The position numbers and the translations under genes were made by a program. Shown one piece after another: positions 2,850-25,597 of a stretch of 64,000 bases of DNA. Origin of the DNA: Apostichopus japonicus (taxonomy: Eukaryota; Echinodermata; Holothuroidea; Aspidochirotida; Stichopodidae); NCBI RefSeq assembly GCF_037975245.1, contig NC_092568.1, positions 32,644,501 through 32,708,500 of the forward strand. The letters run 5' to 3'. The notes under the pieces were generated by a model, which was not told the origin of the DNA, did no database searches, and was given only the letters and a program-made list of their open reading frames with translations. The stretch's first letter is position 1; every line of letters starts with the position of its first letter.

Positions 2850-3228
2850 CAGTGGGGTAACAATGAGCCTGGGCCCCCGGCTCCCGGCCCAAACGGGCTT
2901 AAGCAAGCGCGTCCGCAGAAATGTTGACGAGGGGGAAGGGGGGGGGCAGTAGGTCATATAGGTATAACACACTACTTGGTACTATCTTAGCGGAGCGCCA
3001 CCATAAGTTAGCGCGGAGCGTACCACGAATGTGTTTTTTTGCCAAAAAATACTCACTACACTTCCCGGGTGTTTCAAGTTGCATTTACGCATCGGTTATT
3101 TTGAGATATCATGTCTTAGGATTTTGACTTTCAATAATTTCAGTAATGCATCAGTATAGCGGGGGGGGGGCCTTCGGGTCGGTGGCCCCGGCTCAGCACG
3201 GTCTGAGCCCATATGAGTTACGCTACTG
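2850..3228. mobile_element. hAT-type non-autonomous element (MITE), 379 bp, perfect TSD
   Basis: The element starts CAGTGGGGTAAC and ends GTTACGCTACTG, imperfect terminal inverted repeats of the CAGTGGCGTAAC kind. It is flanked by a perfect 8-bp duplication AACGGATC (2842-2849 and 3229-3236), the TSD length of hAT transposons. It carries G- and C-runs and, at 2981-3087, the ~100-bp GCGCCA-hairpin module shared with other elements here. No transposase is encoded. The matching point in the left palindrome arm (about 1423-1445) is uninterrupted. Confidence 0.85.
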
Positions 3229-3711
3229 AACGGATCAAACATGAACAGACTTCGAACGACTTTACACCCGGACAGTACGACGGTGACATCTCCGAACTGT
3301 TATGACTTATATTCGACCAAACATGTGGATAACCAGTACGAAGTGTTTTTTGGAGGGGCGTTCGTTTTATGCTTAACACAGTCTAAACCTGAACCACCAA
3401 AGTCATGATTCAGTGAGACAATCTTCCGTGCTTTACTTGCTAAATGAAGGGATAATTTTTTCCTCAGTTTATTGCGTTCTACAAAAACAATTATAAATAT
3501 GCAAAATTATACAATGTATATATATATACAACATTGAAATAATGCAAATAAATACGGAAAACATGCACACAAATAGAACGTTACCACGAGTAGCAAAGTT
3601 GCTGATGGTGAAAATTTGCTGTTGATGTAAAAAGCGCTGAAATATAATTAATACTCAAATGATGAGGAGAATTAGCAAAATAGGCGATGCCGAACTTGGG
3701 CTCAACCAGCA

Positions 3712-3783
3712 GCCTCCAGTGAGATTTGAACTCACGACCCCTGGTTTACAAGACCAGTGCTCTAACCACTGAGCTATGGAGGC
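3712..3783 (-). tRNA. tRNA-Thr (TGT)
   Basis: Intact 72-nt copy. It is both the right-arm counterpart of the 819-890 gene in the palindrome and the first unit of the tandem array. Its anticodon stem is fully paired, unlike its partner at 819. Confidence 0.92.
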
Positions 3784-4059
3784 GCTATTGGTAGTAGAAA
3801 ATTGCTTTTTATCCTTCACTGGAAGATGTGTTATTTGCATTCCTACTAATTTCAGATCGTTGAGCTACAATAGTGTGAAAATAGTTTGATCTGAAAGAAG
3901 CATTAATTAAGTGCTTCAATTAGGGAATCTGACGAAAACAAATATAAGAAAAATTATCCAGGTTTTTCGTTGATAGCCCAGATTTATGCCTAAAAATAAT
4001 ACTAAAATGATGAGGAGAATTAGGCAAATACGTGATGCCGAACTTGGGCTCAACCAGCA

Positions 4060-4131
4060 GCCTCCAGTGAGATTTGAACTCACGACCCCTGGTTTACAAG
4101 ACCAGTGCTCTAACCACTGAGCTATGGAGGC
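4060..4131 (-). tRNA. tRNA-Thr (TGT)
   Basis: Intact copy, array unit 2. Its unit is nearly identical to the one at 5187, including flanking sequence. Confidence 0.92.
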
Positions 4132-4448
4132 GCTATTGGTAGTAGAAGATTGCTTTTTATTCTTCACTGAAAGATGTGTTATTTGCATTCCTACCAATTT
4201 CAGATCGTTGAGCCACAATAGTGCATGTGTCAGCAGCTGTCACTGTGAAAATATTCTGATCTTGAAAATATTTTGATCTTAACGATGCATTAAGTGTTTC
4301 AATTAGAGAGCGAGCCGGACGAATACAAAATATAAACAAAACTTATCAACGTTTTTTCGCTAATAGTCCAGGTTGATGCCTAAAATAATACTAAAATGAT
4401 GAGGAGAATTAGCAAAATAGGTGATGCCGAACTTGGGCTCAACCAGCA

Positions 4449-4520
4449 GCCTCCAGTGAGATTTGAACTCACGACCCCTGGTTTACAAGACCAGTGCTCT
4501 AACCACTGAGCTATGGAGGC
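4449..4520 (-). tRNA. tRNA-Thr (TGT)
   Basis: Intact copy, array unit 3. The transcript 3' flank reaches a TTTT about 30 nt downstream. Confidence 0.92.
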
Positions 4521-4799
4521 GCTATTGGTAGTAGAAGATTGCTTTTTATTCTTCACTGGAAGATATTGTTATTTGCATTCCTACTAATTTCAAATCATTG
4601 AGCCACATAAGTGTGAAAATATTTTGATCTTAAAGATGCATTAATTAAGTGCTTCAATTAGGGAATCTGACGAAAACAAAAATAAGAAAAATTATCCAGG
4701 TTTTTCGTTGATAGCCCAGATTTATGCCTAAAAATAATACTAAAATGATAGGGGGGGATTAGAAAAAAAAGGTTATGCCGAACTTGGGCTCAACCAGCA

Positions 4800-4871
4800 G
4801 CCTCCAGTGAGATTTGAACTCACGACCCCTGGTTTACAAGACCAGTGCTCTAACCACTGAGCTATGGAGGC
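4800..4871 (-). tRNA. tRNA-Thr (TGT)
   Basis: Intact copy, array unit 4. Its 3' flank reads into a run of at least eight T about 27 nt downstream (AAAAAAAA on the + strand near 4764-4771), a stronger Pol III terminator than in neighbouring units. Confidence 0.92.
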
Positions 4872-5186
4872 GCTATTTGTAGTACAAGATTGCTTTTTAT
4901 TCTTCACTGGAAGATGTGTGATTTGCATTCCTACCAATTTAAGATCGTTGAGCCACAATAGTGCAAGTGTCAGCAGCTGTCACTGTGAAAATAGTTTGAT
5001 CTTGAAAATATTTTGATCTTAACGATGCATTAATTAAGTGCTTCAATTAGGGAATCTGACGAAAACAAATATAAGAAAAATTATCCAGGTTTTTCGTTGA
5101 TAGCCCAGATTTATGCCTAAAAATAATACTAAAATGATGAGGAGAATTAGGCAAATACGTGATGCCGAACTTGGGCTCAACCAGCA

Positions 5187-5258
5187 GCCTCCAGTGAGAT
5201 TTGAACTCACGACCCCTGGTTTACAAGACCAGTGCTCTAACCACTGAGCTATGGAGGC
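5187..5258 (-). tRNA. tRNA-Thr (TGT)
   Basis: Intact copy, array unit 5, the recent duplicate of the unit at 4060. Confidence 0.92.
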
Positions 5259-5517
5259 GCTATTGGTAGTAGAAGATTGCTTTTTATTCTTCACTGAAAG
5301 ATGTGTTATTTGCATTCCTACCAATTTCAGATCATTGAGCCACAATAGTGCATGTGTCAGCAGCTGTCACTGTGAAAATATTTTGATCTTGAAAATATTT
5401 TGATCTTAACGATGCAATCGTTAAGTGCTTCAATTAGAGAGCGAGCCGGACGAAAAAAAAATGTAAACAAAAAATTCCCAGGATTTGCGCTGATAGTCCA
5501 AGTTGATGCCTAAAAAT

Positions 5518-5892
5518 GGGGGCATTGTGGTCAAGTGGTTAAGGCAGTGGACTGGTGATCTAAGGATAGGTTCGAGCCCTGGCCAGATCATTTCGTTGTG
5601 TCCTTGGGCAAGGCACTTTATCTCCATTGCCTCTCTTCACCCAGGTGTATAAATGGGGACTTGCGAGGTAACTTGTAAATATAGTTGCGTGCGCCGGTTT
5701 TTGGCTACACCCTATATGCAAGTCCCCCGGGAACACTAGGTTGTGGTACACTGTGGTGCCCCAGGAGAGATTGATTGAATTGCGCACACTTTGGTGTGTA
5801 GGTGTGACAAGTTACCAATGACCAAGGCTAAGTTGTAAAGCGCTACGATCTCGATGTAGCAGCGCTATAGAAGTGTCTGATATGTATGTATG
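5518..5892 (+). mobile_element. tRNA-derived SINE inserted in a tRNA-Thr unit
   Basis: A tRNA-like head (A box-like TGGTCAAGTGG, B box GGTTCGAGCCC) is followed by the core TCCTTGGGCAAGGCACTTTA, a block reading ACCCAGGTGTATAAATGGG, and a tail with GTAAAGCGCT and (TGTA)n. Flanking duplications TAAAAAT are at 5511-5517 and 5893-5899, and the interrupted sequence (GATGCCTAAAAATAATACTA) is intact in other array units. The same family is at 30136-30441 in the opposite orientation. Confidence 0.88.
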
Positions 5893-5961
5893 TAAAAATA
5901 ATATTAAAATAATGAGGAGAATTAGCAAAATAGGTGATGCCGAAATTGGACTCAACCAGCA

Positions 5962-6033
5962 GCCTCCAGTGAGATTTGAACTCACGACCCCTGGTTTACA
6001 AGACCAGTGCTCTAACCACTGAGCTATGGAGGC
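5962..6033 (-). tRNA. tRNA-Thr (TGT)
   Basis: Intact copy at the array's right edge. Its 3' flank is still array-like, but its 5' flank (6034-6250) differs from the array and resembles that of the 8361 gene, including a TGACGTCA site. The array's original end gene may be this one. Confidence 0.92.
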
Positions 6034-6830
6034 AGATGTGAATTACTGTGATTTGGTTGAGGTTTTGTACATTAACACGACGAATTGGTTGCTCTCGATC
6101 GATAAAAATGGGATATAGAACAAACGACTGGCTCTGCAGCTGTTCCTATGTATAGGTTTATTTAGTCTGAGCCGTGAAGATGCACTTGTATAAATCTGGT
6201 GTATGAGTCATTATGACGTCATAGCCTCTGACAGTGTTTGTTCACGTTTGGATTATCCAATGATTATACCAATGAATTTAACCATAAACCCAGATAGGGT
6301 GGTTTTCATTTCATATTTAGGTTAATCACACGAAATTCACAAAACAATATATAGTACATACAATTTTGTTCATGTTCACCAAGAAAAGAGAAAAACATAG
6401 GCTAATACAGATATATACAAAACCAAATAAAATACAAAAGACAGAACGAAATGGCCCATTTACAAGGGCCATGTCGTGCCTAAGTTATATTGACCAATAA
6501 CTGAATAGGGGTTGTATCATGTACGCAATTTTGGAAAGTTCATATATGTCACAACATCAAGAGCCACGCCCATGACAGTTGCAACTCTCTTGTCAGAATA
6601 CCGTATAGGTTCATATTTTGTTTTTCTTCAAACTCTCAAATGCCGCTGAAAAATAGCTTAATGAGGGAAAGTTAGTCGAATATGAAATTAATTTTCTTTC
6701 AGTTTATTGGCAAATTTCATTGTACAAAACAGTAGTTAATATTCATTTTTATCCTATATTCAACATTTACATATGTGGAAATAAAAGAACAGCAACATTT
6801 AGCATTATGTTACATAATAGCATGGGCGTC
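6034..6830. other. tRNA 5' flank and non-coding sequence
   Basis: No gene seen. The first ~220 bp match the 5' flank of the tRNA at 8361 (shared GCAGCTGTT, TTTATT..TCTGAGC and TGACGTCA). The rest is A/T-rich with no reading frame of note. Confidence 0.5.
6214..6221. promoter_or_regulatory. CRE-type TGACGTCA upstream of tRNA-Thr
   Basis: A palindromic CREB/ATF-type site 181 bp upstream of the 5' end of the tRNA at 5962-6033. The site and its approximate distance are conserved upstream of the tRNA at 8361. Function is inferred. Confidence 0.35.
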
Positions 6831-8077
6831 AATCCTGGGGGGGGGGGGGACGGGGGACACGTCCCCCATATTTCGATGGGTGGAGGACACATTACCAAAT
6901 GCCCCCCCCCCCCCCCCACACATTTGGAAAAGAGTAGTGGCGTGGCTCTATTTGGTTCGGGCTTACACATCTCAGGATTCATATCATCGAATATTACAAG
7001 TTCAGTTCTATGAAAAGTGACCGAGATTTTTCACATCGGTAGACCTGCAACTTTGTCTGTTTGTCGCGACGATACCGGAGTTTACTCCACAGTGAGAACA
7101 CTGGGTACATGGTGGTTACATAGTACGCTCCGACCAGAATTCACCCGATTACCAGATGAAGATCCACCTAGCAACCGAGGTAACTTGCGTGAGGACTCCA
7201 ACGAACAACCACTGATTTATTTTGATGCCTTCATCACTTTAGCCACCACTCACATTGGACTTAAGGCTATTCTAAGTCTGACAATACATGCGCATGTGTG
7301 AGGTCCTGAAAATATAATTAAAGTGGTTTGTCTTGCCATCCTTGTTTCAAACTTCATAGAAATGTATTCTCGTAGACCTAGCAAAACATTTAAACTGACA
7401 CTCGGATCTGGACTGTGCCTAATTAGTTAGTTATTTAAGTTATTATAATGGCGTATGAGGAAATGCACCATTTTGTGGTACGACTCCCAAGTCGAGAAAC
7501 TCCCCATGCAGTCGCAGCGGATAGCTTCCTTCACCTATATGTCAAGGGACATTTTGGGACATTGTTCCTATTGGCCTATATCTGAGGCACTGGTGTCATT
7601 CCTTGACCGACTTGGTGCAATATATTGTGCCCATTTCGAAGCAAATGTATTCACAGATTGTTAGTTGTCATGGGTTCGAACAAATAAGGGGTATTCTATT
7701 CTGAAACATTGGGCAAAATGAGGCTGGGGTTTCCAGTTCGCCGCATCATTTGTCAACTTGCAATGGGTTCGAATGTTCATGTCAATGGGAATCAGTAATA
7801 AAAGAAATAATCCACCAAAAATTAAGGCCGCATGAACTTTATTGCCGGGTTCCTGAGTGACGAATTTGTAATTTTCTCCAGAAATCACGCAACTAGATGG
7901 CTGCTATTCAGCCTGGCAAGTGCCATCTCTAGCGATCTGGCAGGTATTGAAATCTTAAATTTTCGTGGTACGCTGCGCGCCAACTGATGGTGGCGCTCCG
8001 CTTAGATAGTACTTACGGCCGGAATACTCGAATCGATTACGTCCCCCCCAACGTTTCCAATCGGATTGACGCCCCTG
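6831..8077. mobile_element. hAT-type non-autonomous element, 1247 bp
   Basis: Termini CATGGGCGTCAATCC and, on the other strand, CAGGGGCGTCAATCC form an inverted repeat followed inward by G-run and C-run sequence. Flanking octamers CATAATAG (6823-6830) and CATAGTAC (8078-8085) agree at 6 of 8 positions, consistent with an older insertion. The shared GCGCCA-hairpin module is at 7911-8010. No transposase was recognised; short frames inside look non-coding. Confidence 0.65.
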
Positions 8078-8360
8078 CATAGTACACACACATATATCAC
8101 TGCACATGTGCAATGAAAAAGCAACTTTCATCTTTCTTTTAGTCAATTTACGATTTCACTCTAGAAAACATTTATAAATATAAAAATTTATACAATTTTT
8201 ACTGGTTGGAAATAGAACAGAAAAGCAACTTAGACATTAAATTGTTACATGTCATTGGTAGCACATATACACAACTAGAAAGTTACCACTCGGCAAAGTT
8301 GCTCTAACGAAGATGAAATCAAACCAGCCAAAATGAAGGTCTAAATTTATTATTGTAAAA

Positions 8361-8432
8361 GCCTCCAGTGAGATTTGAACTCACGACCCCTGGTTTACAA
8401 GACCAGTGCTCTAACCACTGAGCTATGGAGGC
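8361..8432 (-). tRNA. tRNA-Thr (TGT) with immediate terminator
   Basis: Intact copy outside the array. The transcript 3' flank begins TTTT directly after the acceptor end, the canonical Pol III terminator position. The upstream side has the TGACGTCA site 172 bp away. This is the best candidate for an actively transcribed founder gene. Confidence 0.93.
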
Positions 8433-8603
8433 TTGCCTATTATATAGAAATTTGTTTTATTTTTTATCTAGTTATGTGAGTTATTTGCTCTCATTCGATT
8501 GATAGTATATATCATACATTTAAACGCTGCAAGCAGCTGTTTCTAGGCTTTTATTTATTCTGAGCTTTGCTATTCACTTATTTACCTATTTGAAGAGAAA
8601 TAG

Positions 8604-8611
8604 TGACGTCA
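8604..8611. promoter_or_regulatory. CRE-type TGACGTCA upstream of tRNA-Thr
   Basis: Second occurrence of the octamer at an equivalent position (172 bp) from a tRNA-Thr 5' end, in an otherwise diverged homologous flank. Confidence 0.35.
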
Positions 8612-8940
8612 TTAATGCGTATCGTCTCGTCCATGGTATGTCAAATATAACAGGATCGTGTATCAGACTGAATCAAAGCTGACTTTCAGACTTTTCAGAA
8701 ATAAGCCATAGCGCCAATAAGAACAAAAGTGATCAGCAAGACAAGTCGCTTTTTACCTGTATTTCCTTTATCGATTTACAAGAAAATGATGAACCAAGAG
8801 TAATCCGAGCTCTACACCCAAGTGTCAGAGAAACAAGTTTAGGAAACAGACCGTTATCATTCGGTTCCCCAGGGTTCTATGGGACCTAGGGATCGCCAAC
8901 TACTATCATAAGGGCGTTTTAGCCAAAAGAAATTCCATCT

Positions 8941-8945
<5 letters not shown>

Positions 8946-8973
<28 letters not shown>

Positions 8974-8974
8974 A
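8946..8974. repeat. (AT)n microsatellite
   Basis: Uninterrupted AT dinucleotide run of about 28 bp. Confidence 0.9.
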
Positions 8975-9021
8975 TTGATATCGTAGTGAGTTGGAAAATC
9001 CAGAACAGTGAAAAACTTCCA

Positions 9022-9092
9022 GCCTCCACCGGGATTCGAACCCGGGCCTTCCGCTTAAAAAGCGGACACCTTAACCACTAGGCTATTGACGC
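9022..9092 (-). tRNA. tRNA-Lys (TTT)-like, probably degenerate
   Basis: The reverse strand has a strong T-arm CCGGG/CCCGG with loop TTCGAAT, an anticodon stem TCCGC/GCGGA with loop TTTTTAA (anticodon TTT) and a D-loop AGTGGTTAA. The acceptor GCGTCAA/TGGAGGC has two mismatches, and there is no T-run in the first bases downstream. It may be a pseudogene or the head of a tRNA-derived SINE. Confidence 0.5.
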
Positions 9093-9500
9093 TGATTGTA
9101 TGTCCAGAGGTTCGAACCCGGTAAGGAAGGTCGTAATTCCACTGTAGGCGTGCATCCGTCTGTCAGTGCTGCAGCCGATCTATGAACACAAAAAAACATT
9201 CATACCTTTCTAGCATCAATGAAATATGCGATCACACTGCATAACCTATTCTAAATGTAAAGGTTCGACATTTTAAGTTTGATTCATAAATATCTCCTGA
9301 TCACCCCTGTCGAATATTTCCGTCAGTACGTTACACTCTCAAAATGCATGACGAACCGATTCTGACTTTGGATGAAAAAGACAACGTCCATCTCCAATCA
9401 CAACGTTTCTATATTTTTAACTCTTTAGCTGTCCCTAGTAACCCATGGCAATAACATTCAAAATAACATTAAAAAGGAAATACGTGCATTAGCTCATGCA

Positions 9501-9572
9501 GCCTCCAGTGAGATTTGAACTCACGACCCCTGGTTTACAAGACCAGTGCTCTAACCACTGAGCTATGGAGGC
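9501..9572 (-). tRNA. tRNA-Thr (TGT)
   Basis: Intact copy. The 5' flank (to the right) is array-type unit sequence, while the 3' flank is unrelated and has TTTTT about 24 nt downstream. This is a junction between an array unit and other sequence. Confidence 0.92.
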
Positions 9573-9853
9573 GCTATTGGTAGTAGAAGATTGCTTTTTA
9601 TTCTTTACTAAAAAGATGTGTTATTTGCATTCCTTCCAATTTCAGATCATTGAGCCACAAAAGTGTGAAAATATTTTGATCTTAACGATGCATTAATTAA
9701 ATGCTTCAATTAGAGAACCGGACGAAAACAAATATAAGAGAAATTATCTACGTTTTTTTCGTTGATAGTCCAGATTGATGCCTAAAAATAATACTAAAAT
9801 GATAGGGGGGAATTAGAAAAAAAGGGTTATGCCGAACTTGGGCTCAACCAGCA

Positions 9854-9925
9854 GCCCCCAGTGAGATTTGAACTCACGACCCCTGGTTTACAAGACCAGT
9901 GCTCTAACCACTGAGCTATGGAGGC
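9854..9925 (-). tRNA. tRNA-Thr (TGT), one acceptor-stem change
   Basis: The acceptor 3' strand is TGGGGGC instead of TGGAGGC, turning a T-A pair into a T-G wobble; everything else is intact. The 3' flank is array-type with a T-run; the 5' flank is unrelated sequence. Confidence 0.9.
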
Positions 9926-10788
9926 GCTCGCCATGTTCTCTTTTATTTTAATTATGCCAAGACAACTGCTAAGACAAGCTAGCATCTTGAATTATCTCTG
10001 AACTGACTCTATCACTCTGGTCTTCCAAACTTTTACTAGAGTTAAATAGTTTGCTCTCAGATATGAGTAAAGATACAGAGAGAAAGAGAGAGAGAGTGGG
10101 GGCGGGGGAGGGGGTGTAGGCTGGCTGATATATATTGTTATGAAAAATAAAACCTTATCAGTAAATAAATGACAACAAAATTGATTGGGAAATAATAAGA
10201 CAATTCGAAAAGGACGACTTTTTATTCTTTTTTTTGGGGGGGGGGGTACTTTTCCAGTAAACTCATTCTGGTATACGCACGACGGTATTTGTTTTCTGTA
10301 CCATTATATCGTTCTTTATCTATGAAAATTCTTTTGCTTTGAATATCATGAAAGAAAGTTATCATATACCTGCAAATGTAAGTATTACTTTCCAAGTTGA
10401 GAAAAGCTGGAGGTTCGAAAACCGTACTGACGTGGCCTTCTAAAGAAAAAATGCTGCCTTACATTTGTGGAAAAGATTTTATAACGCCAAAATGCATTGT
10501 TTTATACTATCACACTGCAGTTGAAAAGTTAGTAGTTGCGAATGGTGAAATCGATGGCGCTCTTACGGAAAGAGTCCCAGAGCCGTATATAGAGATACGG
10601 CTCTGAAGATTTATAGAGCTAAGAGCCGTACAAATCATTACGTGTGATAGCCATTTACATATGTACATAATGTATAAATAAAACCATAACGGCTGGTCAT
10701 TTGAAGTAAACTTCAATATGCTGACAGGGAAAGTTTCGAAGGTTAGAGTCTACCCAACGATCAATTTATGAAAGGGACCAGAGCCTTT
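9926..10788. other. Intergenic, no gene seen
   Basis: Contains a GA-rich run (10078-10100) and a T/G homopolymer run near 10230. Frames at 10397-10606 and on the opposite strand show no recognisable domain. Confidence 0.5.
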
Positions 10789-11455
10789 ATTATCAACAGT
10801 GGCGTAGCTACGGGGGGGGGGCCTGGGGGGCCGGGGCCCCCCCATGAAATCGGCTGGCCCCCCCACTGGCCCCCCACTGGGAATGGGGTAAAAAAAATGT
10901 AAAAAAAAAAAATTGTAAAAAAAAAAAAAACCTCATCAGTGGGATTCACTAATATTTTTTGTTCAATAATTTGGGAAATAGAGTTACACAATTTTCTCGT
11001 CTGCATCTGGCAGAATAAGAATAATACAATATCTGAAGTAATCATGAGAATGGTCATACAGCATGGCATGGCAATGGTCGATGCGACGGTTGCGACCATA
11101 CACCACGAACCTTGTGCATGTGCTGCGCGATATCGATATCTACCAATACATGTTATCGGTCATCGATTGGCACAAAAACCCAGATTCTGATGACAGCTGC
11201 CTCAAGAAACCCAATAAATGGCCTAATTAGCACCGAGCCACCAATGTGGACCATTACCGAAACATCGATGCGTGTTAGTCTTCCATCCCCTTCTTCTAAT
11301 GCTATTTAAGTCCACATGTGGGCATTTCCTGCAAACCTACCGGTAGCCCACAGGGGTTTGAGTTGGGAGAAAGGCCTTGACACCTTGAAACAACAAATGA
11401 TGCCAACCATAGGCGTACGAGGCGGGGGTGCAGGGGGGGGCAGACTGCCCCCTAA

Positions 11456-11588
11456 ATTTCCAGAGGACAAGAAATTCGGGCAAAAGTCCTGAAAAATTCG
11501 GGCAGCCTAAGAGGAGAAAAAAATATTTTTTCTCCTCTTAGGCTGCCCGAATTTTTCAGGACTTTTGCCCGAATTTCTTGTCCTCTGG

Positions 11589-11592
<4 letters not shown>
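11456..11592. repeat. Near-perfect 137-bp palindrome (hairpin)
   Basis: Two ~66-bp arms meet at AAAAAATATTTTTT (centre about 11524) and are almost exact reverse complements out to ATTTCC/GGAAAT. It is followed directly by an (AT)n run. The near absence of divergence implies recent origin or a sequencing/assembly fold-back. Confidence 0.92.

Positions 11593-11658
<66 letters not shown>
11593..11658. repeat. (AT)n microsatellite
   Basis: About 65 bp of uninterrupted AT dinucleotides abutting the palindrome. Confidence 0.95.
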
Positions 11659-11661
<3 letters not shown>

Positions 11662-11814
11662 TGCAGTAGCTTGCCCGAATCTTTTTCAAATTTTTGCCCG
11701 ACAATTCCATGATTTTCTTTATTTAACACCACCGTAAGCGCAGTTCACCTGGGCTACCACGCTTTTTGCACGATCAATTTTTTTTCTTCTAACTAGTCAA
11801 TTGTATACCTGGAC

Positions 11815-12464
11815 CAAGGGCGGCGGAACCGGGGGGAAAAAGGGGGCACGTGCCCCTCCCCCACTTTTCCTCAGGTTAGAAATGTGCCTTTTTTCTACAT
11901 AAAAATGGAGGTGCCTCAAGTGAGCAAGAGGCCAGGGAACCAGAATGAACACTCGGGAAGGGCCGTTTCCGGCCATCTGAGGGGTTTGTGAAACCAACAT
12001 TTTTAAAAAGTACGCTCCGCGCCAACTGATGGTGGCGCTCCGCTCAGATAGCCGTGCATACAACTTTGCAAATCCTGGCTAAGCCCGTGACTTTTTACGA
12101 ATTTCTGTGAGTCAAACTTTCGAATGGAAAAAATTTGTTAAGATATTAACAATAAAAAAACTCTAATTCGGAAGATTCCTACATTAGTAACTAGCATGAT
12201 TTCACCTCATTTTGTCTCAAAAGAAAATTTGTTCCTTGTTTCCCAATTTGCGCAATGGATATTGCAGTGCTAGTATGCATATTTTCCTTGAGGGGGGGGG
12301 GGACGTTGATGGAGTGATGTGTATACACAAATAAGATAATACAATTAGAGTTATAAAGGGTACTGAATATAACGCTGCATCATTCCAACCGAATTTCTGC
12401 AAAGTGCCCTTTGATGTCGGTGCCCCCCCCCCCCCCCAGATAAAAAATGCTTCCTCCGCCCTTG
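11815..12464. mobile_element. hAT-type element E, nested in D (650 bp)
   Basis: Termini CAAGGGCGGCGGAAC and, on the other strand, CAAGGGCGGAGGAAG. Flanking octamers ACCTGGAC (11807-11814) and ACCTGGAT (12465-12472) match at 7 of 8. Shared module at 11952-12051. It has G-runs at the left end and C-runs at the right, as in the other elements, and is non-coding. Confidence 0.85.
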
Positions 12465-13329
12465 ACCTGGATATCCCCGACATGAGTGTATAAAAGAAAC
12501 ATTTTCTTTTTCATGGATGGTGGGGGGGGGGGGGGGAGTGTCTACAAGCCTAGAAGTACATGTTTATCATATTCTTTGTTATATTTTATACTTTTTTGTG
12601 AGAAAAATTGCAGTCTCACCCGACACAGCGACATTATCCCGCCTACGTGTCGTTGAACAATGTTTTTCTGGGGGTAGCTGAGTACTGTGTTAAAATAATA
12701 AATAAGGTAACTAAATATAGCAGCTTAAAAAATATACTGTCCCATTTTACCCCTTCAAAGTGATGTTACCATTTTTTCTTCTTCTAATTTACCAAATTTT
12801 GGGGGAACTGTAAATTTCTAAAACGTGAGATTATAAAATAAAGAATGTTTAGATGCAACTTGCAAGGCCTCAGAAGTGCCGTTTCCGGCAATCTGAGAGG
12901 CATTGTGTGCCAAAAATTTTCTTGTTCGCTACGCGCCAACCGATGGTGGCGCTCCGCTTAGATAGTGTCACGGGAACTTTCGGGCACAAAAAGTTTTGCC
13001 CCCCCCAAACTGAAATGGTCCCGTACGCCTTTGATGTCAACTTCACTCAAGTTAAAAGTCTGGCTGAGTTGGCAAGGCCAGTCAGCATGAAAGAGAAAAA
13101 AAAATTTGCATTTCTGTCACCAAAGTTGCACATCTTTTTGGTTGCTATTTTGCCTTACAGGTGCCATCTCCTGCGATCTGGGGGGTGCTGAAATCTCAAA
13201 CTTTCTCTGTGCGCTCCGCGCCAACCAAGGTGGCGCTCCGCTCAGATAGTAACCCGGCCCCCCACAAGAAAGAACAGCCCCCCATGGCCCCCCCACTCAA
13301 AAAATCCTAGCTACGCCACAGATTATCAA

Positions 13330-14442
13330 TGAATGGCTCAAAATGGGACCCTAGTCCGTATTCTGTATTCGCAAATAATTCTCAAGTGGTAACATAATAT
13401 ATTTTTCGCCTACACTCATAAAGTACGTTGAATATGAATGAATACTGAACAGTTCCATGTTATGTAGGCCTATGTTCTACAAATTGAAATCTTTCACGGC
13501 CCTTCGGGGAACCGCCGTTATTTAGCTGTAACCCGCCTCCTCTCCCTCACCGGCCCCCACCTGTAAATTCCTCGCCACATAGACTGTGGCCGACGGCCCG
13601 GTGAAGGAAGAGAGAATGATGGCTAGTTAGGTTCGGGAATGATAACGTACGGTGCAGTTGCCGCGGAGTTATATGTTTATTTTGTTTCTCATTTAAACTC
13701 ATCATAATCGAGGGTATAGCTGGACAAAGCTAGGACTTAACCTCACCGCGCCATATCGATGGCAAGAATTAGTAGCTAAAGTGGCAACTGGCAAGTATGT
13801 TCGAATGTTTAAACAAATGTTGGTTACTAACGCACTTTACAGTGCCACATAATTTTTACGGTCCTATATACTCCTCTGGGCCCAATCCATCAAATTTATA
13901 TTGATTTCTTACCGTTCGCTACATACGCAAGACACAGCATTATATAGACATATATACTAACAGAATGACACCTCACGTGGTATCCGATCAAAGGAACTGG
14001 TTACGGGTTACACTTACACGGCGGTCATGCACAACATAATCATATAAAAACAAGGTGTGATTAAGAATATGCACAGCATCGACTCATGCTGTAGCCTACT
14101 ATTGCACCAAGATGATACCTGCACTCTAAAAAGATGGGTAATATTTTCTGGGTAAATGCTCGGTTGGGGAGTTCTTTAACAATATTGGGCAAAATCCCTG
14201 CTCTATGTGTTGACCAACTTATAGTAAAACAGAATTTAGTAAACCGCTGTGCAAAGTGAATGGAATATACCCAATATTTGGTAAGCGTCCCGCCAAATCG
14301 AAAGTCACTGCAGGGGTACTGACTGGGTCGACGCGCACATCTGCGACGAAAAAATGAACGTTTTGCCTATACATTTGTGTGTGTTTGCATGGACAAACAC
14401 CGTACGTTACGTATCATCGCATAGCTCATACATACAGTGTAG
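13330..14442. other. Intergenic, upstream of the SAMD3-like gene
   Basis: No gene seen. At 14121-14300 there is a repeat starting CACTCTAAAAA followed by TGGGTAA/TGGGCAA motifs; an inverted relative ends at 21705. The last ~150 bp would hold the promoter of the SAMD3-like gene; no TATA box is obvious. Confidence 0.5.
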
Positions 14443-17400: not shown

Positions 17401-19243
17401 ATTAATATGATTGCACCTGACACTCATTCCAGCCAAGTTAGGCATTTTCATATATATTTTTATCTTTAAAGACAGCTGGCTATAGACAAATTTGATTTGT
17501 TTTTGTAAGGCTTAAATGAAAGTTGTGTATGTAAAATCTGCAGGTAATCTATGTTCTTACACATTGAGGGGGAATAGTAAAGCAGAATGCCAAACAGTGT
17601 TCACTGATAGTTTGTTCTCATGAAACCATCGTTACCCTGGGTTACTTTATGTATGTTGTTTGGCTGTTAAAGGTCTGAAATAATTATCATTAGTTATCAT
17701 TTAATCCACAAATAATTGGGTTCCACAGTAACTATTTTCTAAGCTTTTTAATGTGTGAGTCTTTCCATGTATAGCATGCAGCTGTTCCCAAAAAGAGTCA
17801 TGTTCCACTGGTGACTTAAAAAAACTATTTCATTTTCATTTTAGATTGAGCAAGACTTTGCATTGCTGTATCCATCAAGATCAAACAAACTCTATCAAAG
17901 ATGGGAGAAGGTGGCAAGAAAAGTTATTTTATACAGCCAACAGCTAAATTGGAGGGAGGTCCTAGGTATGCAGAATACAAAAATTGATGACCTCACAAAG
18001 GGTAAGCCTAAATATACAAAACAAACAGACATATGTTGACTTTTTGGTCCATCAAATTAGATTCTCATGAGCTGTAGGTACATGAATGGTGATATTGACA
18101 GTAAAGTATGCTCACTGCTTTGTACTTAAAATACGGTTCCAGCAATTAATAGTATGCTGCCTCTCATTGGTGATTGCTGTTCAAAAATCAAGGAATAGAG
18201 CCTTTTAATTGTTGGACAATTGGAAAAACCTTTTAAATGGTTAATAATGAAGTCTAACATTGGGTTAAGTTTTAGGGGGACTCCAAGTCTGTGGTACTCT
18301 CACATCAAGGCAATATTTCCATCTTTACATCAATCAGGCAATGTAAATTGCACATGCATGTCAGTGACAACCCTCTATCAGACTCTCTGTGAATCTGTCC
18401 ATGCACATGCACCATTGTGTGTTGATATATGATCATATCTTGTGAGGTTGTTATCCTTAATTTATTCTTGTTAATAGAAATAGGTCACCAGCCAGAGGTC
18501 AAAATCTGCAAAGTGCCTCTTCTAGAGACTATACAAAAATGTTCACGTAATGAATATTTGGAAACTTGGTTGTTTAACGTTACCAAGGGTTAGAATGTAT
18601 ACTGCTTCTCTCATTACTACAATGAAGTTAAACAATGAAAGTGATTCTCATAAACAGAAAGTGAAGTTTATTCATGAAGATGGCAAGAGTCATTTAAGAA
18701 ATTTTAAAGGGTGCCTAAATATTATATTTTGTATTCTGCAGAAATTTAACTAGCCAGATTTAAGGGGTGAATAATTAACAGTTTAACTGTTTTTATCTTC
18801 ACAGAAGAAACAAAGAATCTGGCCTTTTCCCTGTTAGCTATCATATTCAGAAGTGGAAGGAGTGGAAAGGGTAGAAAGGGTCACAACTCAGCAAATGATT
18901 CAGTAAACTGCTTCATTGATGTGCAACCAGTAAGTTTTTCTACATCCCCATTTGAATGCAGGGCTCAAACAGCAGGTTTGAAATAGTGACTCAAATAACT
19001 CAGACTGGGAAGCTCAGATCTCATATTTGATGTGTATATCAACCATATTCAGTGAAAGAAGTCTATCCCTTTCTTTTTTTTTTTTTGGGGGGGGGGGTCA
19101 AACGTTATTTGAGGTCACTGGGTAAAACTTTTGAAAGTTTTCTTGACAGCTCCAGTAAAATGGGGAGCTTAGAGGGATCTCAAAATTGTTGAAGACTGCT
19201 CATTTATATTTACATTTATATTTTATATATATATATATGTATA

Positions 19244-19321
<78 letters not shown>

Positions 19322-19724
19322 TAGCTACATGGTTTTTTACATTTGTGTCATTTCATGAAATTGTGGATAACTACACTTCTTAAAATATTGCATTTTTCTT
19401 TCTTTTCATAGGAAGTGTTTGACATAGACCAATATGTAAAGACCCTCAAAGCAATAGAAACCCCACAGCCATTTGTTGTGCAGGGGAAGTCGGATAACTC
19501 CATCACAAACTTATATCATCAAGGGAACGCACTACCTCAGCAGTCACTCATGAAAGCTATTGACGTATGCTTTAAGGCCATTTACATATTTGACATTGAA
19601 TATCAACCAATGTGTTAAGATTGCATGGCAGTTTTTGCAGGTTGTGATCTATGACTTCACTGAGGCAAGCATCACAAGTTCCATTCGAAATCTGCGTGCA
19701 TTCATCGCATCAGATTCAAAGTAG
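14443..19724 (+). pseudogene. SAMD3-like SAM-domain protein gene, probably a unitary pseudogene
   Basis: Seven coding segments with GT-AG boundaries: 14443-14536, 16525-16634, 17170-17363, 17845-18001, 18478-18546, 18805-18929 and 19412-19724. Segments 1-2 encode a sterile alpha motif (ILQKWGVEELIDKF, then LLDELSIKELIPKVGLRLTF). Later segments match the body of the SAMD3-like family of fish and invertebrates (FYRQKRIKE, IEQDFALLYPSRS, ALPQQSLMKAIDVCFKAIYI). Lesions: an in-frame TGA at 17343-17345 between FP and LLDPGM, where the family usually has an arginine or similar (CGA to TGA would fit); a +1 shift after QPMC at 19615-19618, beyond which KIAWQFLQVVIYDF continues one base out of frame; and a phase clash between segments 2 and 3, with no exon for the usual YPFL..GTGY..W stretch. 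Introns are retained, so it is not a processed copy. Function is unknown for the family. Alternatives are assembly errors or an unrecognised exon in intron 2. Confidence 0.75.
19229..19318. repeat. (AT)n microsatellite in an intron
   Basis: About 90 bp of AT dinucleotides with a few GTATATGT interruptions at the left, in the last intron of the SAMD3-like gene. Confidence 0.95.
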
Positions 19725-20276
19725 TTCTTTATTCCTAACTATTCATTGTATTTATATCATGCATTACATCTTGATAGAACAAATTTAAAGTGTAAATACT
19801 GTGTAAAATTACAGATGATTTTTCTTAACTTCCATTGTTCTATTACTTAGCTTTCATGGCTTGGCGTTCAAGGAATTTGGTGAAGTACAGTATCAGTTAA
19901 CTTGGTTTCATCATTCATGGTTAAGTGTTTGCCATTTTATTTCATACTGAATCAGCCAAAAATAATTTGTTTTAATAGATTATATTCATTAACACCATCA
20001 CAGTAATGTCTTACAAAATCAGTTAATATTTCGGAAAACCTGTGCAACATGTACTAACATGACATGATGGTACCTCTAGCTTTGGTTTAGCATCACAATG
20101 ATCTGGTGTTAGCTAACCAGTCTCGTTCCATCAAAACTAAAATGTAATTGAACATGCTGAAACATAAGATATGTGTTTCCACCTGTGCTGCCTACATTTG
20201 GATTAGTTTTCTATTACTGATAGAAGATTTAATATGGAAATCAGCCTTTTGTCATCTTTTAAAGCTTATCTAGACT
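19725..20276. other. Intergenic, 3' side of the SAMD3-like gene
   Basis: A/T-rich sequence with no gene seen, between the last SAMD3-like segment and the minisatellite. Confidence 0.4.
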
Positions 20277-20279
20277 TGT

Positions 20280-21078
20280 GCCAATGAGTGGACGAGAGTA
20301 GCATGCTACAATAGCAATGGGTGAACGAGAGAAGTATGCTACAATAGCAATGAGTGGACGAGAGTAGCATGCTACAGTAGCAATGGGTGGATGAGAGTAG
20401 CATGCTACAATAACAATGGGTGGATGAGAGTAGCATGCTACAATAGCAATGAGTAGATGAGAGTAGCATGCTACAATAGCAATGGGTGGATGAGAGTAGC
20501 ATGCTACAATAGCAATGGGTGGATGAGAGTAGCATGCTACAGTAGCAATGGGTGGATGAGAGTAGCATGCTACAATAGCAATGGGTGGATGAGAGTAGCA
20601 TGCTACAATAGCAATGGGTGGATGAGAGTAGCATGCTACAGTAGCAATGGGTGGATGAGAGTAGCATGCTACAATAGCAATGGGTGGATGAGAGTAGCAT
20701 GCTACGATAGCAATGAGTGGATGAGAGTAGCATGCTACAATAGCAATGGGTGGATGAGAGTAGCATGCTACAATAGCAATGGGTGGATGAGAGTAGCATG
20801 CTACAGTAGCAATGGGTGGATGAGAGTAGCATGCTACAATAGCAATGGGTGGATGAGAGTAGCATGCTACAATAGCAATGGGTGGATGAGAGTAGCATGC
20901 TACAATAGCAATGGGTGGATGAGAGTAGCATGCTACAGTAGCAATGGGTGGATGAGAGTAGCATGCTACAATAGCAATGGGTTGACGTGAGTAGCATGCT
21001 ACAATAGCAATGGGTGGATGACAGTTACATGTTACTATGACAATTGATTGACAGTAGTAGCATGCTACAATAGCAGTG
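20280..21078. repeat. 33-bp minisatellite, about 24 copies
   Basis: A 33-bp unit containing the 10-bp palindrome TAGCATGCTA is repeated with very few differences between about 20290 and 21000, with degenerate units at both ends. Because 33 is a multiple of three and the unit lacks stops, long frames open on both strands (243 codons on -, 177 on +); these are artefacts of the repeat. An A/G variant (ACAATAG/ACAGTAG) recurs every 3-5 units. Confidence 0.95.
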
Positions 21079-21389
21079 GGATGTGATAAGTGTATTTTTT
21101 CTTCATGATTTCATCAGTTTTATCTGCTTTAAATTTGTTTTGATATGCTGCTTCAAGAAAGTAGATGTTAAATAAATCATCCTACAATACACTGTGTTGT
21201 TAGATCTGTCTTTTTGGTTTGGTGTATGCTGTACTTGTTCACAATCATCCAACCTTCCATGTTCATCCCACCTATTTTAATTTATATCATTCAACATTTT
21301 TGTGTATAGTCAGTAAAAAATGGTGAAATAGTGAAATACCTGTATTGATCATTATGAATATATTGATTAACTATCCATTACCCAATAAA

Positions 21390-21712
21390 GGGAGAAAAAC
21401 TGCTTAAATAATGTCGAAATATCGACCAATAAATAGCCCTATGTTGCCCAATTAGTAGTAAAGGATACCCAACCATATGATATGCGTATTCAACATTTCG
21501 CCAACAAATGATAAACATTGCCCAACAGGCCAGTTGGGTAATTTCTTAATTACTATTTATGGGTAAAATAATATGCCCAACTATGAGTAAAAACATTACC
21601 CAGCAGCAATTGGGCAAAAAATGCTCAACAGTTGGTTGGATACATACTTCCCCAGCGTTGGTTAAAAATTGGGCAAAAAAATTGACCAACTTTTTTAGAG
21701 TGTGTAAACACC
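21390..21712. repeat. TGGGCAA-rich repeat ending in CACTCTAAAAA (inverted)
   Basis: Many TTGGGCAA/TTGCCCAA and GGGTAA motifs run up to TTTTTTAGAGTGTG at 21696-21709. The end is the inverse of the one at 14121. It looks like a DNA-transposon end or a short MITE; no TSD was found. Confidence 0.5.
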
Positions 21713-23770
21713 GCCAACGGACCCAACCTTCGCCCCCCCCCCCCCTTCACCAAAACACATACACTATATTCAGTAGGGCCGTTGCTAGGCCCTTGATATG
21801 AATATGCCTACCTCAATGAACTGTGACGCTTATGAAGAAGCACTAAGAAACAGATCAATAACTTAATTCGGTAATAAAAACTGTTATACTATAAGAAACG
21901 GCTGTATATACCGTTTCTAAAAACACAATAGCCATCCATTGTTATCTATCCCCGATCTTCATTGTACAATGTCTGTATACAAGACAATTCAAAGTCTCGC
22001 TTGAGTGACGTCATGTGAATTAAATTATTGATTTAGGAGACTACGTCACAACAGCGGCAATGTAAGGTCGCCAACAACTATACCATCGTCTCTATAAGTT
22101 ATAACAGGGAGTTATAACAACTCCCTGGTTATAACGTGTTTTTTTTTTACTCGGCATAGTATATGCGAATAATCGGCTTCAAAATTAACACAGCCGAATC
22201 TTATGCTGTATAGGATCACTTTGTATTGAGTTGTAATTTCAAGTTTGTTATTCTGGCCCAACCATGTAATGGAACAAGGGCCTCTCAAATCAGTAATTTG
22301 ACATGCTAAGCCAAATTAGCGGGCCGTCTTAAACCGTTTACTTTCCTTTTCGTTCTTCGTCTAGCCCCGGGAATGTCATGCTCCAACACAAGACATTTAT
22401 TATGCATTGCTCTATTGCAAAGTGTTGGAATATAACCTAAATCGTGTGCATTGTTCCAGTTGAGATCAACTTGACGGAATCTAGAAAAAAAGTAGGCTAC
22501 ATTTTCTGATCGGGTGAAGACTTTATTTCTTTCAGCGATCGAGTTTGATACCATCAGGTTGTGACTGACGGCAATGGTTTATCAAGCTCTTTAATAATTC
22601 AGTTTATGGGCCTACACAAACAAATGGCGTTCATGTTCATTTTTCTGAATGTTCTTCTACCTTTTATTTATACGTGTTAATTTATTGAAATCCGGCATTT
22701 TCCGACATACTTTCTGCATTTCTGGTATTATTATTATTTTTACTTCTCACAAATAGGGTCTGGCCTAAAAGGACCTTTATTTATTTTTCATAATTGAGGC
22801 CTGGTGAACTACCAAATGGCACTAAGAAATATTTCAGTTCTCCAATTCTTGTCTGTTTTTTCTCTGTTTTTGGCCCTTTCAACTAGTGGTAAGAGAGCTT
22901 TTACCTCATTGAAGAGCAAGCTGTAATAAATACCTTTCGTTTTGGGGCAACCTGCAGTTATCTAATTCCAGTATCGATCCTTTACATAATCTTGCACTGT
23001 GAAGCATTACCTACCCTCGTGAACGGATCATCCGATTGCCCTCATTGCGAAACATAAGGTCAAAGGTAAGCGCCTCAGAGTATGGCAAGGATTCTTTACT
23101 GTCGCTCTACATGAGGGAAACGACAGTCATCGATATTTTCAAACCAATTTGAGAGAGTGGGAAAATCTCAATTCTACGGGAGCCTCTAGGTTCTTTACAG
23201 ACCGAAATTACACAGAGAGTCAGTTGTACAAAGATCAAATTCTCTGTGTCCCAGCAAAATGAAAGAAAGTTTTAGCTGTTACTTTTTAGATGCTAATACT
23301 GCATAATTGCTGACTGATACTTCCTAGTGTGAAATGAGCTATTTTTTAGCATCAAATTCAGCTGAGAAATCTGGTTTAAATATATTTGCTTTGCCGTTTT
23401 ACCAGCCTCAGTAAAACGGAACGCAAGGTAATAACATAATAAATGTCTTATTCATGAAATATGTGAGAGAGAAAAACAATTTTTTTTAGGAAACTGATTA
23501 AATATGATTTAGGAACATCAACATCGCCAAAGTTGGACCTCTATACCTTTAATGAGGGGAATTTACACACGTACACCCTCATTGAACAAGTTCAAAGATT
23601 TCCCCGTCATGACTCAGTGATCATCTTTGATATCGAGGGAGTTAACTATAGGTACATGTCATGCAAGTAAAGTACATACTATATGACTATTCCATAATAA
23701 GTGGTTCTTCAGATCAATTGTATGGCATTCTTGGTCTCTGCGTAACACACCGCTTGTATTTCATAAACAA
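21713..23770. other. Intergenic, no gene seen
   Basis: Includes a small inverted repeat GGGAGTTATAAC/GTTATAACTCCC near 22105 and A/T-rich sequence. The frames present show no recognisable domain or splice pattern. Confidence 0.5.
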
Positions 23771-23778
23771 AACAATAG

Positions 23779-25597
23779 CAGGCGCGTATCCAGGATTTTC
23801 TAACCCGGGGGGCGCGAATTACTATCTAAGCGGAGCGCCACCATCGGTTGGCGCGGAGCGTACAAGAAAATTTCTGGTTTTGATACCCCCCAGATCACCG
23901 GAAATGGCACTTCTCGGGCTTGAAAATGAGCAACCAGATGTACACTTTTGCCTGAGAACCAAGTATTTCCCCAAAGTTTTTTTTTTCCATCAATAACCTT
24001 TTTGAAGATTGTCACCAGTCACACATCATGTTCGACCTCATTGCATGTCCTATGGATCATTGCTTTTGTAGGTTATTCTACGTCACGGCCCACAATATCC
24101 GAAAGCCCCACTTTTCAAGGTTTTAAGCCCATTACTTGTTGAGAATTTGAAAATTCACTTTTCTCGTGAATAAAATCACCTGAAAACATACCCATAATGT
24201 TGCACAAAATTCAATCTATAGACAACCAATATAGAAAAACCTCCTTGAACCCCTAACAGACGGGTCAAAATTGAACGAGTAGAGGAAAGTATGATGAAGA
24301 ATGTTGGTGAGGAAATTTTGGAAAATTCCGACACAGTTAATTTATTGGTGTAGAAATAGTGCAACCTCTTATAATGGCTTTTACAAAACTTGGTATAAGG
24401 AACAGAAAAATAGCAGATATTTCCGATATGAGGTATATCGAAACCGAACACTTCACTCATAGGCGTAGGTCCCGTAGGAGGCGGGGGCTGCAGCCCCCCC
24501 CCCTCCCAATTGTTTTCCCTTTTTTTTGGGCACCTACTGAAAGAAAAATAAATAGCAATGAATAGCTTAAAATGATCTCCTTGGTAATTGAAATAAAGTT
24601 GTAAGCTTGGCCGACATTACTACTGTAAAAGAGAGTTTTGACATAAATGGATATGGTTTTTCTCCATCTACATAAGACATTTGGTTGTTTACATTAGCAT
24701 CCGGCGGTATACTGTGCAACTTTGACGGACCGTGCGGTACACGATGCCATACAATGTAATGAGCGATCTTGCCTATATGATATTGGCATCGACATGTTGA
24801 ATGCGCGCTTTGCGCGCGAAAAATTTTGGCTTTTTTTTCGGGCAAGTCATTACAGCCCCCAAATCCAATGTGGCTCCTACGCCTTTGACTACACACATTG
24901 ACAGTTTTTGAGGCTGTACATCGTGGAACATGCATTTAAATGCTCATTGATATGATGTTATATCTGCTCTTTGCTTTACAAATTCGAACAGGCGTGTAGC
25001 GAGTAATTGCCAAGGGAGGGCGAAGCCTGTAGGCAAACTATCTAAGCGAAGCGCCACCATGAGTTGGCGCGAAGCGTACAAGAAAAATTTTGGCCGAAAA
25101 TGCCTCCCAGATCGCTGGAAATGACACTTCCCAGGCCTTGTAAGTTGCATCTAAGCATTGTCTATTTTGAAATTACTAGCGATGTCATAAAGAAAATTTG
25201 CTCGGGGGGGGCGGTCGCCCCCTTCCCGAAATGCGTTATGTTCCCCGACGACTCGGTCGAGTTCAAGTACATTAGTGAGAGAGGAAAAACGGAAACGTCA
25301 AAAATGGAGTTGTCGGGGTAAGGGGTAGGGTGAGGCGCACACCCCCTCCGTAATCCTTGATCTGTCACTGGCTACCCTGTGTATATAATAGGGATCTTTC
25401 TCTTCCCGAGGTCTTGACTATCTTCTACTCCCTCCTTTTCTCCTTTTTCTCTCTTTTTTCTTTTTCTTTTCCCTTCCTTCCTCTCCTCCTTTTCTCTTTT
25501 CCCCTCCTTTTCCCTTTTTTCTTCTCTTTTTTTTCTCTCCTCTTTTCCTTACCCGGGGGGCGCGCGCCCCCAACGCCCCCCCCTGGATACGCACCTG
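23779..25597. mobile_element. hAT-type element F, composite (1819 bp)
   Basis: Starts CAGGCGCGTATCCAGG and ends CCTGGATACGCACCTG, a strong inverted terminal repeat. Flanks share only AATAG, so the TSD is unclear. It contains two copies of the shared module in the same orientation (23821-23921 and 25036-25152), element G, and a long pyrimidine tract (25430-25550). The second module and a CAGTGACAGATCAAGG-type end at 25347-25366 suggest further nested, incomplete elements. Confidence 0.75.
24458..24887. mobile_element. hAT-type element G, nested in F (430 bp)
   Basis: Termini CATAGGCGTAGGTCCC and, on the other strand, CAAAGGCGTAGGAGCC, close to those of element D. Flanking octamers ACTTCACT and ACTACACA match at 6 of 8. 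Non-coding. Confidence 0.65.

Follow-up and report, generated by a model that had tools for sequence, protein, structure and literature searches.

A candidate subterminal recognition cassette shared by hAT-superfamily transposons with different termini in the sea cucumber Apostichopus japonicus

Module copies and transposons in the window

A 64,000-nucleotide stretch of the Apostichopus japonicus genome (NCBI RefSeq assembly GCF_037975245.1, contig NC_092568.1, positions 32,644,501 to 32,708,500 of the forward strand), hereafter the window, contains a series of partly nested hAT-type transposons. A first-pass annotation had noticed that seven places within these elements share a module of roughly 100 bp, present once in each of elements A to E, twice in F and in neither H nor I. 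We describe the anatomy, distribution and company of this module, which is probably a subterminal cis-acting recognition cassette of hAT-superfamily transposons that has been reassorted among families. The elements and module copies are listed below in window coordinates, with terminal inverted repeats (TIRs) and target site duplications (TSDs, given as matching positions out of eight).

2850..3228, minus strand: element A, 379 bp; TSD AACGGATC at both sides, 8/8; module facing the tip at 2850
2981..3087, minus strand: module copy A; core at 2981-3023
6821..8077, plus strand: element B; TIR CATGGGCGTCAATCC / CAGGGGCGTCAATCC; TSD 6/8
7911..8010, plus strand: module copy B, with the facing tip (8077) 67 bp away
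10797..13321, plus strand: element E; TSD ATTATCAA at both sides, 8/8; element D nested within
11408..13033, plus strand: element D; TSD ATGCCAAC/ATGTCAAC, 7/8; element C nested within
11815..12464, plus strand: element C; TSD ACCTGGAC/ACCTGGAT, 7/8; module facing the tip at 12464, 413 bp off
11952..12051, plus strand: module copy C, beside a fossil tip
12067..12089, minus strand: buried TIR CACGGGCTTAGCCAGGATTTGC, 37 bp outside module C
12853..12966, plus strand: module copy D, with the facing tip (13033) 67 bp away
13161..13250, plus strand: module copy E, with the facing tip (13321) 71 bp away; core with a 1-bp deletion
23779..25597, minus strand: element F; TIR CAGGCGCGTATCCAGG / CAGGTGCGTATCCAGG; no clear TSD
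23821..23921, minus strand: module copy F1, with the facing tip (23779) 42 bp away
24458..24887, plus strand: element I, nested in F; TSD 6/8; without the module; right end like that of D
24989..25011, plus strand: fossil TIR in front of module F2
25036..25152, minus strand: module copy F2, with its own TIR (24989) 48 bp away
51341..51704, plus strand: element H; TSD CTTATGAT at both sides, 8/8; without the module; match to the core of a second cassette (M2, below) at about 51631-51648

All seven module copies lie where the first-pass annotation had placed them. A profile built from the seven recovers every one of them across the 64 kb (GC content 38.0%) and gives no other match below an E value of 4.8, which bears out the absence of the module from H and I. 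Profiles built from six copies recovered the omitted copy every time (E 2.8e-14 to 1.7e-28); an unrelated weak match at 21610-21660 appeared in two of these seven runs (E 0.2 and 0.66). A search with a 26-bp core, allowing up to three mismatches, finds six matches in the window, against none in 100 shuffles; copy E has a 1-bp deletion in its core. The strings that had been listed as common to all copies hold as a consensus but not as exact strings, with substitutions in several copies: GCTCCGCGCCAAC is exact in three of the seven, ATGGTGGCGCTCCGCT in five, TAGATAGT in four (and at two other places), CCATTTCCGG in one and ATCTGGGAGG in one (and at one other place).

The seven window modules lie 37-131 bp inside a TIR and share one orientation. 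Read inward from the facing tip, the module starts with ACTATC in six copies and with GCTATC in C. The module of element C is some 204 and 413 bp away from the two tips of the element itself and is still oriented toward the right-type tip; the buried TIR at 12089, next to it, scores 11 of 13, a match with a chance probability of about 0.0005 within 150 bp. We had considered F2 as a recent nested insertion and dropped this idea, as the same pairing of modules recurs elsewhere: of the first 100 matches listed on contig C1, five places have two modules separated by 1.08-1.23 kb. In the copies that were fetched, F2-type modules moreover have mostly the same sequence past their TIR (TTCGAATTTGTA). 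The recurrent pairing and the kept sequence thus indicate that the F2 end became fixed in the F family and characterizes it.

Two further features of the element ends and interiors were recorded. G-run hairpins of the form GGGGGG...CCCCCC lie just inside the TIR at the left ends of B, E, F, I, H and C, on the side away from the module or from its usual location, and element D contains a 70-bp inverted repeat with a 3-bp loop and 99% complementarity (11453-11595). A subterminal hairpin at every end was entertained as a general feature and rejected: strong DNA hairpins occur at many ends, but the best of them at the right ends of A and Cp are not the module, and that at the right end of Cout is weak.

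Anatomy, conservation and position of the module

The module is abundant in the genome. An exact 33-bp core pattern has 8,038 matches (4,038 + 4,000) in the 671,581,487-bp assembly of 35 contigs, a figure that counts exact cores only, and the reversed control has none; exact core patterns gave no match in GTDB genome contigs or IMG/VR viral contigs. For comparison among families we assembled 87 copies, 81 of them from 58 loci and six from the window (window copy A is counted among the loci, as L001). The loci comprise 30 with the first listed pattern places on C1, 20 stretches fetched from C1 and eight found by similarity to copy A. Sampling was not random, since every locus was reached through the core or copy A and 50 of the 58 come from the initial 5 Mb of C1. 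Families C and F were at first clustered together by their TIRs and were split by hand.

Within these hAT-type elements the module consists of a 43-bp core and a block of about 57 bp, directed toward one end; the block is partly absent from copy A. Family-weighted information content, computed over 86 of the 87 copies in 17 families (copy E left out), defines the core as ACTATCTAAGCGNAGCGCCACCATNNGTTGGCGCGNAGCGTAC. It holds two direct GCGNAGCG repeats, 23 bp from start to start, together with well-kept GCGCCA and TTGGCGC. In each repeat position 4 (N) carries the least information (1.36 and 0.26 bits, against 1.34-2.00 for the other columns), as expected were one protein reading both. Of 73 sites with both half-sites, 71 have a half-site spacing of 4. 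Locus L022 has, about 450 bp inside its f5 element, a palindromic variant of the module with two right half-sites head to head (CGCTACGCGCCAACCATGGTTGGCGCGTAGCG).

We compared successive segments of the module and its flanks between 16 families, one copy each, giving 120 pairs (f10 and f12, where the module adjoins another insertion and the interior is like A and F, were omitted). The core exceeds a z-score of 4 in all 120 pairs and the 57-bp block in 93, as compared with 7 pairs for the inner 60 bp, 1 for the 60 bp beyond and 2 for the outer 30 bp. The internal region is thus better conserved between families than the ends, a feature shared with the coral CMITE group discussed below. Whole-element comparison agrees with this picture, as many family pairs share little beyond 42-120 bp from near the core edge, and the few that share more do so through nesting or true kinship. 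The elements are therefore not homologous end to end, the case in which, according to the first-pass annotation, the module would have been ordinary shared ancestry.

The outer edge of the module is sharp across families, whereas its inner edge fades through the block. The sharp outer boundary, along with the lack of a recognisable own tip within about 220 bp in f7 (two copies), f10 and f12, could suggest that the module is itself a small mobile unit inserted into many elements. We consider this very improbable, as the module has no sharp end on its inner side and faces the right-type end in the copies with defined ends.

Position relative to the tips was assessed by searching the outer side of each copy for an 8-bp duplication with matching TIRs. 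Such a pair was found for 24 of the 87 copies, 22 of them credible, with 7-8 of 8 TSD positions matching; L053 of the F2 family (130 bp) and L041, whose tip is 180 bp out, were not counted as credible. Control searches with foreign 8-mers gave 0, 2, 1, 1 and 2 of 87. The 22 credible copies fall in nine families (A 3, Cb 4, D 6, E 1, f4 1, f5 2, f6 2, f9 2, f13 1), and in them the module lies 41-155 bp from the facing tip. Their TIRs are consistent within a family and mostly different between families, the two ends agreeing at 9-15 of 16 positions. Most tips read CANNGGCG, with CAGTGACG in f4, CAGGGACG in Cb and CAGGCCCG in T (a transposase-bearing element described below) as exceptions. Module-bearing elements thus have the 8-bp TSDs and short TIRs beginning with CA that characterize hAT transposons, in place of the TTAA target duplications and CCYT tips of the piggyBac type. 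The copies in A, D, f4, f6 and f13 measure 347-1,026 bp, in keeping with miniature inverted-repeat transposable elements (MITEs), a range that leaves out two D copies with nested inserts (L052 and window D).

A mirrored search on the inner side, with a tip window of 330, returned 15 copies, of which seven had already been counted (A 3, f4 1, D 1, f9 2) and eight belong to the C family. These C-family elements are 601-663 bp long and have CAAGGGCGGCGGAAC-like tips; one tip lies 172-211 bp beyond the inner side of the module, and subtraction puts the other about 396-426 bp beyond its outer side. The seven that were fetched have the same layout as window element C, including a fossil tip 37 bp from the module. 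In all, 30 of the 87 copies lie inside TSD-bounded hAT-type elements, but the module does not have in them the fixed place for which the first-pass annotation had proposed to look. Copies for which no TSD was found often had just 1.5 kb of inner flank or, as in F2, fossil ends. A count of a hAT tip motif outside the module (42 of 84) and inside it (9 and 12 of 84) was set aside, as it used one strict motif, which misses many F tips and all F2 tips. Loci L006 and L034 have CAGAGCC(G/T)TATA at a near-identical offset outside the module and interiors that are A-like and F-like, perhaps a preferred insertion site.

Replaced termini, a transposase-bearing carrier and the proposed role

A comparison of families F and f9 bears directly on how one module comes to lie beside different tips. 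Over 500 bp inward of the core edge the two are 0.83-0.92 identical in 26 comparisons, whereas the outer 44 bp reach 0.62-0.77 over 20-33 aligned columns, against 0.69-0.72 for shuffles. They have GCGAATT in common just outside the core, and similarity breaks about 7 bp outside it. Both f9 copies have their own TIRs at both ends and exact TSDs, and the f9 left end matches that of f6 (79.5% over 88 columns). Because the interiors are about 90% identical and the outer parts are at chance level, the termini have been replaced. Together with the 16-family segment test, this supports the reading that the module is kept while termini change.

A second line of evidence comes from another cassette, M2 (...GGGGAGGGGGACACCCCCTCCCCTTAGACCCCTCCCCCAGG), which occupies the place corresponding to the module (hereafter also M1) in H and other elements. 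M2 occurs at 16 places in the loci and the window (up to three mismatches), five of them in a tandem array of L007, and is found with several different tips. The F tip, which goes with M1, is near-identical to tips that go with M2 in L014 and L051 (z +9.0 and +9.1, both with 0 of 400 shuffles), while L060 is less close (+5.9). Conversely, the H-type tip goes with M2 in H and L067, and the M1-associated T tip is related to it (z +4.7 to L067, 0 of 400 shuffles; +3.6 to window H). The F and T tips are unrelated to each other (z +0.9, 86 of 400 shuffles). D, which has the module, and I, which has none, also share an outer right end (z 5.2-9.8 in six D copies). The crossing of two cassettes with two tip types supports reassortment, though less firmly than the F/f9 comparison supports replacement, the T-H relation being its weaker leg. 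The first-pass suggestion of a recombination-swapped cassette thus gains support from F/f9 and the segment test, with the reservation that the tip types in the crossing are not fully distinct.

These comparisons also bear on plain shared ancestry, under which a single old hAT family would have diverged rapidly in its tips and interiors and left the module as a slowly changing remnant, with no swapping. The tips do keep CANNGGCG, the TIRs of C, Cb, E and F1 are related, the element comparisons contain inner groups (D-F2 and f5-f6-f8), and tip types grade into one another. Against it stand interiors of F and f9 that are about 90% identical next to outer 44-bp segments at chance, with a break about 7 bp outside the core, and a near-identical tip joined to M1 in F and to M2 in L014 and L051. 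Both comparisons contradict this explanation unless the junctions are assembly artefacts, and we judge it unlikely.

The first-pass annotation had proposed looking for an autonomous hAT element that carries the module. No hAT domain was present in ten window open reading frames (ORFs) tested, eight of them from window elements. Near the fetched copies there were 76 ORFs of at least 130 aa, some of them N runs; the eight scanned gave host-type genes and a reverse transcriptase, and no hAT. A genome search with PF05699, in which 150 matches were scored of 633 candidates, was more productive, and we fetched the flanks at six of the loci. At L066 an exact module lies about 970 bp past the transposase stop codon and is followed by the tip CAGGCCCGTCGGAAGG. 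A second copy with the module at the same place, L069, is 99.4% identical to L066 over 340 bp, and the homology ends within 2 bp of the tip. Since it stops there, transposase end, module and tip form one element, which we call T, and a transposase with a hAT dimerisation domain thus occurs in a module-bearing member.

The T tip was found at 14 places genome-wide, all exact although three mismatches were allowed, and a control gave none; this uniformity suggests that T is a young family. At 12 of the 14, PF05699 lies inside the tip in the right direction, four times at 1,162-1,166 bp and eight times at 2,445-3,001 bp. The module adjoining the tip was read in the two copies fetched. Five more copies have F-type sequence with an F2 module at the place seen in L066 and L069, and in both copies whose left junction was fetched F is inserted at the same point, corresponding to position 743 of L066, L066 itself being uninterrupted. 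The eight longer distances are as expected with F inserted. Copies with the insert spacing outnumber uninterrupted ones (8 vs 4 of the 12 measured, the insertion itself being read in 2), as if the composite moves (L075, L076).

At L067, next to a frame of 752 aa, the element terminates in the right end of H (90% over 247 bp), which makes H its probable small partner, lacking the module. The transposases of T and of the H type have 24 of their C-terminal 50 residues in common. Loci L060 and L065 have visible hAT tips and no module, and the stretches fetched at C2:24.8 Mb and C3:25.7 Mb contain neither module nor tip.

The position of the module in T argues against its being a promoter, one of the roles first suggested, or a small-RNA gene of the elements. 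Such a role would suit a short GC-rich inverted repeat near one end, but a module 3' of the transposase does not suit it, and the string CCACCAT forms an ATG in just one of the seven window copies. RNA folding of the module is not clearly better than that of shuffles in six of the seven copies, with z below -3 in the remaining one, so that the hairpin of the first-pass annotation is not supported as a folded structure. At gathering score Rfam reports only tRNAs in the window, and its matches in 11800-13330 and 23770-25400 are at chance level. We regard a promoter or small-RNA gene as highly unlikely.

The module could alternatively be bound by a host protein, such as a domesticated hAT protein of CGG/GCGC type or an anti-silencing factor, and be selected for its effect on expression or chromatin. 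The core is rich in CGG and GCGC, CGG-binding domesticated hAT proteins are described in other animals (PMC8097297), and the C-family module is far from its facing tip. A general host site would not, however, need the direction and the closeness of 41-155 bp to one tip that are kept in the 22 TSD-bounded copies, and the location 3' of the T gene also tells against this explanation, which we consider improbable.

Among the roles that have been offered, a site or enhancer acting in transposition fits best, and our preferred explanation builds on it. Many non-autonomous families, and at least one element with a transposase (T), carry the module inside one end, the 'right' end, which it faces. The core supplies two CGNAGCG repeats and two GCGC half-sites at mostly fixed spacing, to which the DNA-binding domain of the T transposase lineage may bind, so that the transpososome would be assembled on that end and T-like transposases could cross-mobilise other families. 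The TIR might need little beyond a CANNGGCG tip for cleavage. Cassette and terminus have probably parted and recombined, leaving one cassette in families with unrelated tips, and the simplest route would be template switching during gap repair between elements. Gap repair after excision, when accompanied by template switching, would keep the tips and replace the inside.

Several observations weigh against a recognition cassette of this kind. The T frames listed span 130-308 aa, with one of 514 aa, and zf-BED (PF02892) has 10 matches genome-wide, none near a T copy, which counts against the simplest version; two insect hAT proteins are also described as preferring AT-rich motifs (PMC8097297). 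The module is at one end only, while the transpososome needs both. Outside the spacing count stand 13 lone half-sites, some of them plainly deletion variants and one within the L022 palindrome. The eight TSD-bounded C-family copies transposed while their module lay some 400 bp away from the tip it faces, against a strictly subterminal position, so closeness to the tip is not needed for movement. H, I and the transposase loci L060, L065 and L067, where a tip is visible, lack the module, and hAT elements in general thus need none. Tip types are not fully distinct (F to L067 +3.3, L014 to L067 +3.2, H to D +4.0), which is due in part to G-runs that they have in common, and the ends of D are similar to H as well (z 3.9-7.2). 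Finally, the sample favours conserved cores, as copies were collected by the core pattern. The nine core columns outside that pattern (positions 35-43) are also conserved, with a mean of 7.54 of 8 (copy E scored 0 through its deletion and an alignment offset), as is the block of about 57 bp, which the pattern likewise does not cover.

A broader version of the recognition cassette is possible, though less likely than not. The address label of hAT transposons in this genome would be the subterminal cassette and not the TIR: T-like transposases would read the 43-bp core and tolerate nearly any CANNGGCG-like tip, elements would gain a competitive advantage from new cassettes, and a pool of two or more interchangeable cassettes, M1 and M2 among them, would reassort with a pool of tips. 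It is an old question how non-autonomous transposons with little likeness to autonomous partners get moved. A cassette that stays while tips change, and that is also present in a seemingly recently active transposase-bearing element, would point to one protein and one 43-bp site serving many tips. Such a cassette is also a caution that classification by terminal repeats can mix lineages.

The window also contains features apart from these transposons. Between 819 and 9925 there are eleven tRNA-Thr(TGT) genes and one tRNA-Lys gene, some in tandem units of about 387 bp, and at 20282-21080 a 33-bp minisatellite of about 24 copies has several open frames, among them frames of 177 and 243 aa. Two stretches are exon-like, 49904-50260, which has no Pfam match, and 57123-57467, which matches the Pfam aminotransferase class I/II at 1.3e-12. 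Both resemble exons of serine palmitoyltransferase subunit 2.

Comparison with known systems

Subterminal sites are described for several hAT transposons, and Kat1 and Tgf2 are reportedly further members with subterminal repeats. In the literature that we searched on hAT elements with swapped tips, subterminal sites and A. japonicus transposons, the only close case found was the CMITE families of corals.

The transposases of hAT elements are described as binding subterminal sites and cutting at the tips: in Hermes, BED domains bind subterminal repeats (PMC10368747), and the Herves transposase binds a subterminal motif (PMC3143072). The sea cucumber module resembles these systems in offering short candidate protein-binding sites just inside the tips, of the sort needed beyond the TIR, and its asymmetry between ends is like that of Hermes (PMC10368747, PMC3143072). 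The accounts of Hermes and Herves, however, describe sites for a single element each, whereas here one 43-bp site is common to families with unrelated tips.

A further parallel is provided by hAT-derived DNA-binding domains of the CGGBP type, most of which are described as preferring CGG, several GCGC and a few AT-rich DNA; for four transposon proteins, the motifs match their own subterminal regions (PMC8097297). CGG-binding hAT-derived and hAT-19 proteins thus resemble what the module would call for, both in their CGG or GCGC preference and in the subterminal location of matches (PMC8097297). The comparison with the module is one of motif likeness; T gave no zf-BED match, and some of the hAT proteins prefer AT-rich DNA.

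The CMITE families of Acropora corals come closest. They are described as piggyBac-related MITEs with different TIRs and a 75-bp internal region that is better conserved than the TIRs, for which the authors suggest a role in transposition and cross-mobilisation, while warning of ascertainment bias (PMC2872659). The likeness lies in the conserved inside and the differing TIRs, and the caveat about ascertainment holds for the sea cucumber module too. CMITEs are, according to the same account, piggyBac-like elements of about 100 bp with TTAA duplications and an estimated copy number of about 1600 in A. millepora (PMC2872659). The sea cucumber module, in contrast, belongs to hAT elements with 8-bp duplications, has more than 8,000 exact cores and is a one-sided cassette that faces one end. 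The replaced termini, the second cassette M2 and the transposase-bearing carrier T go beyond the CMITE precedent as it is described there.

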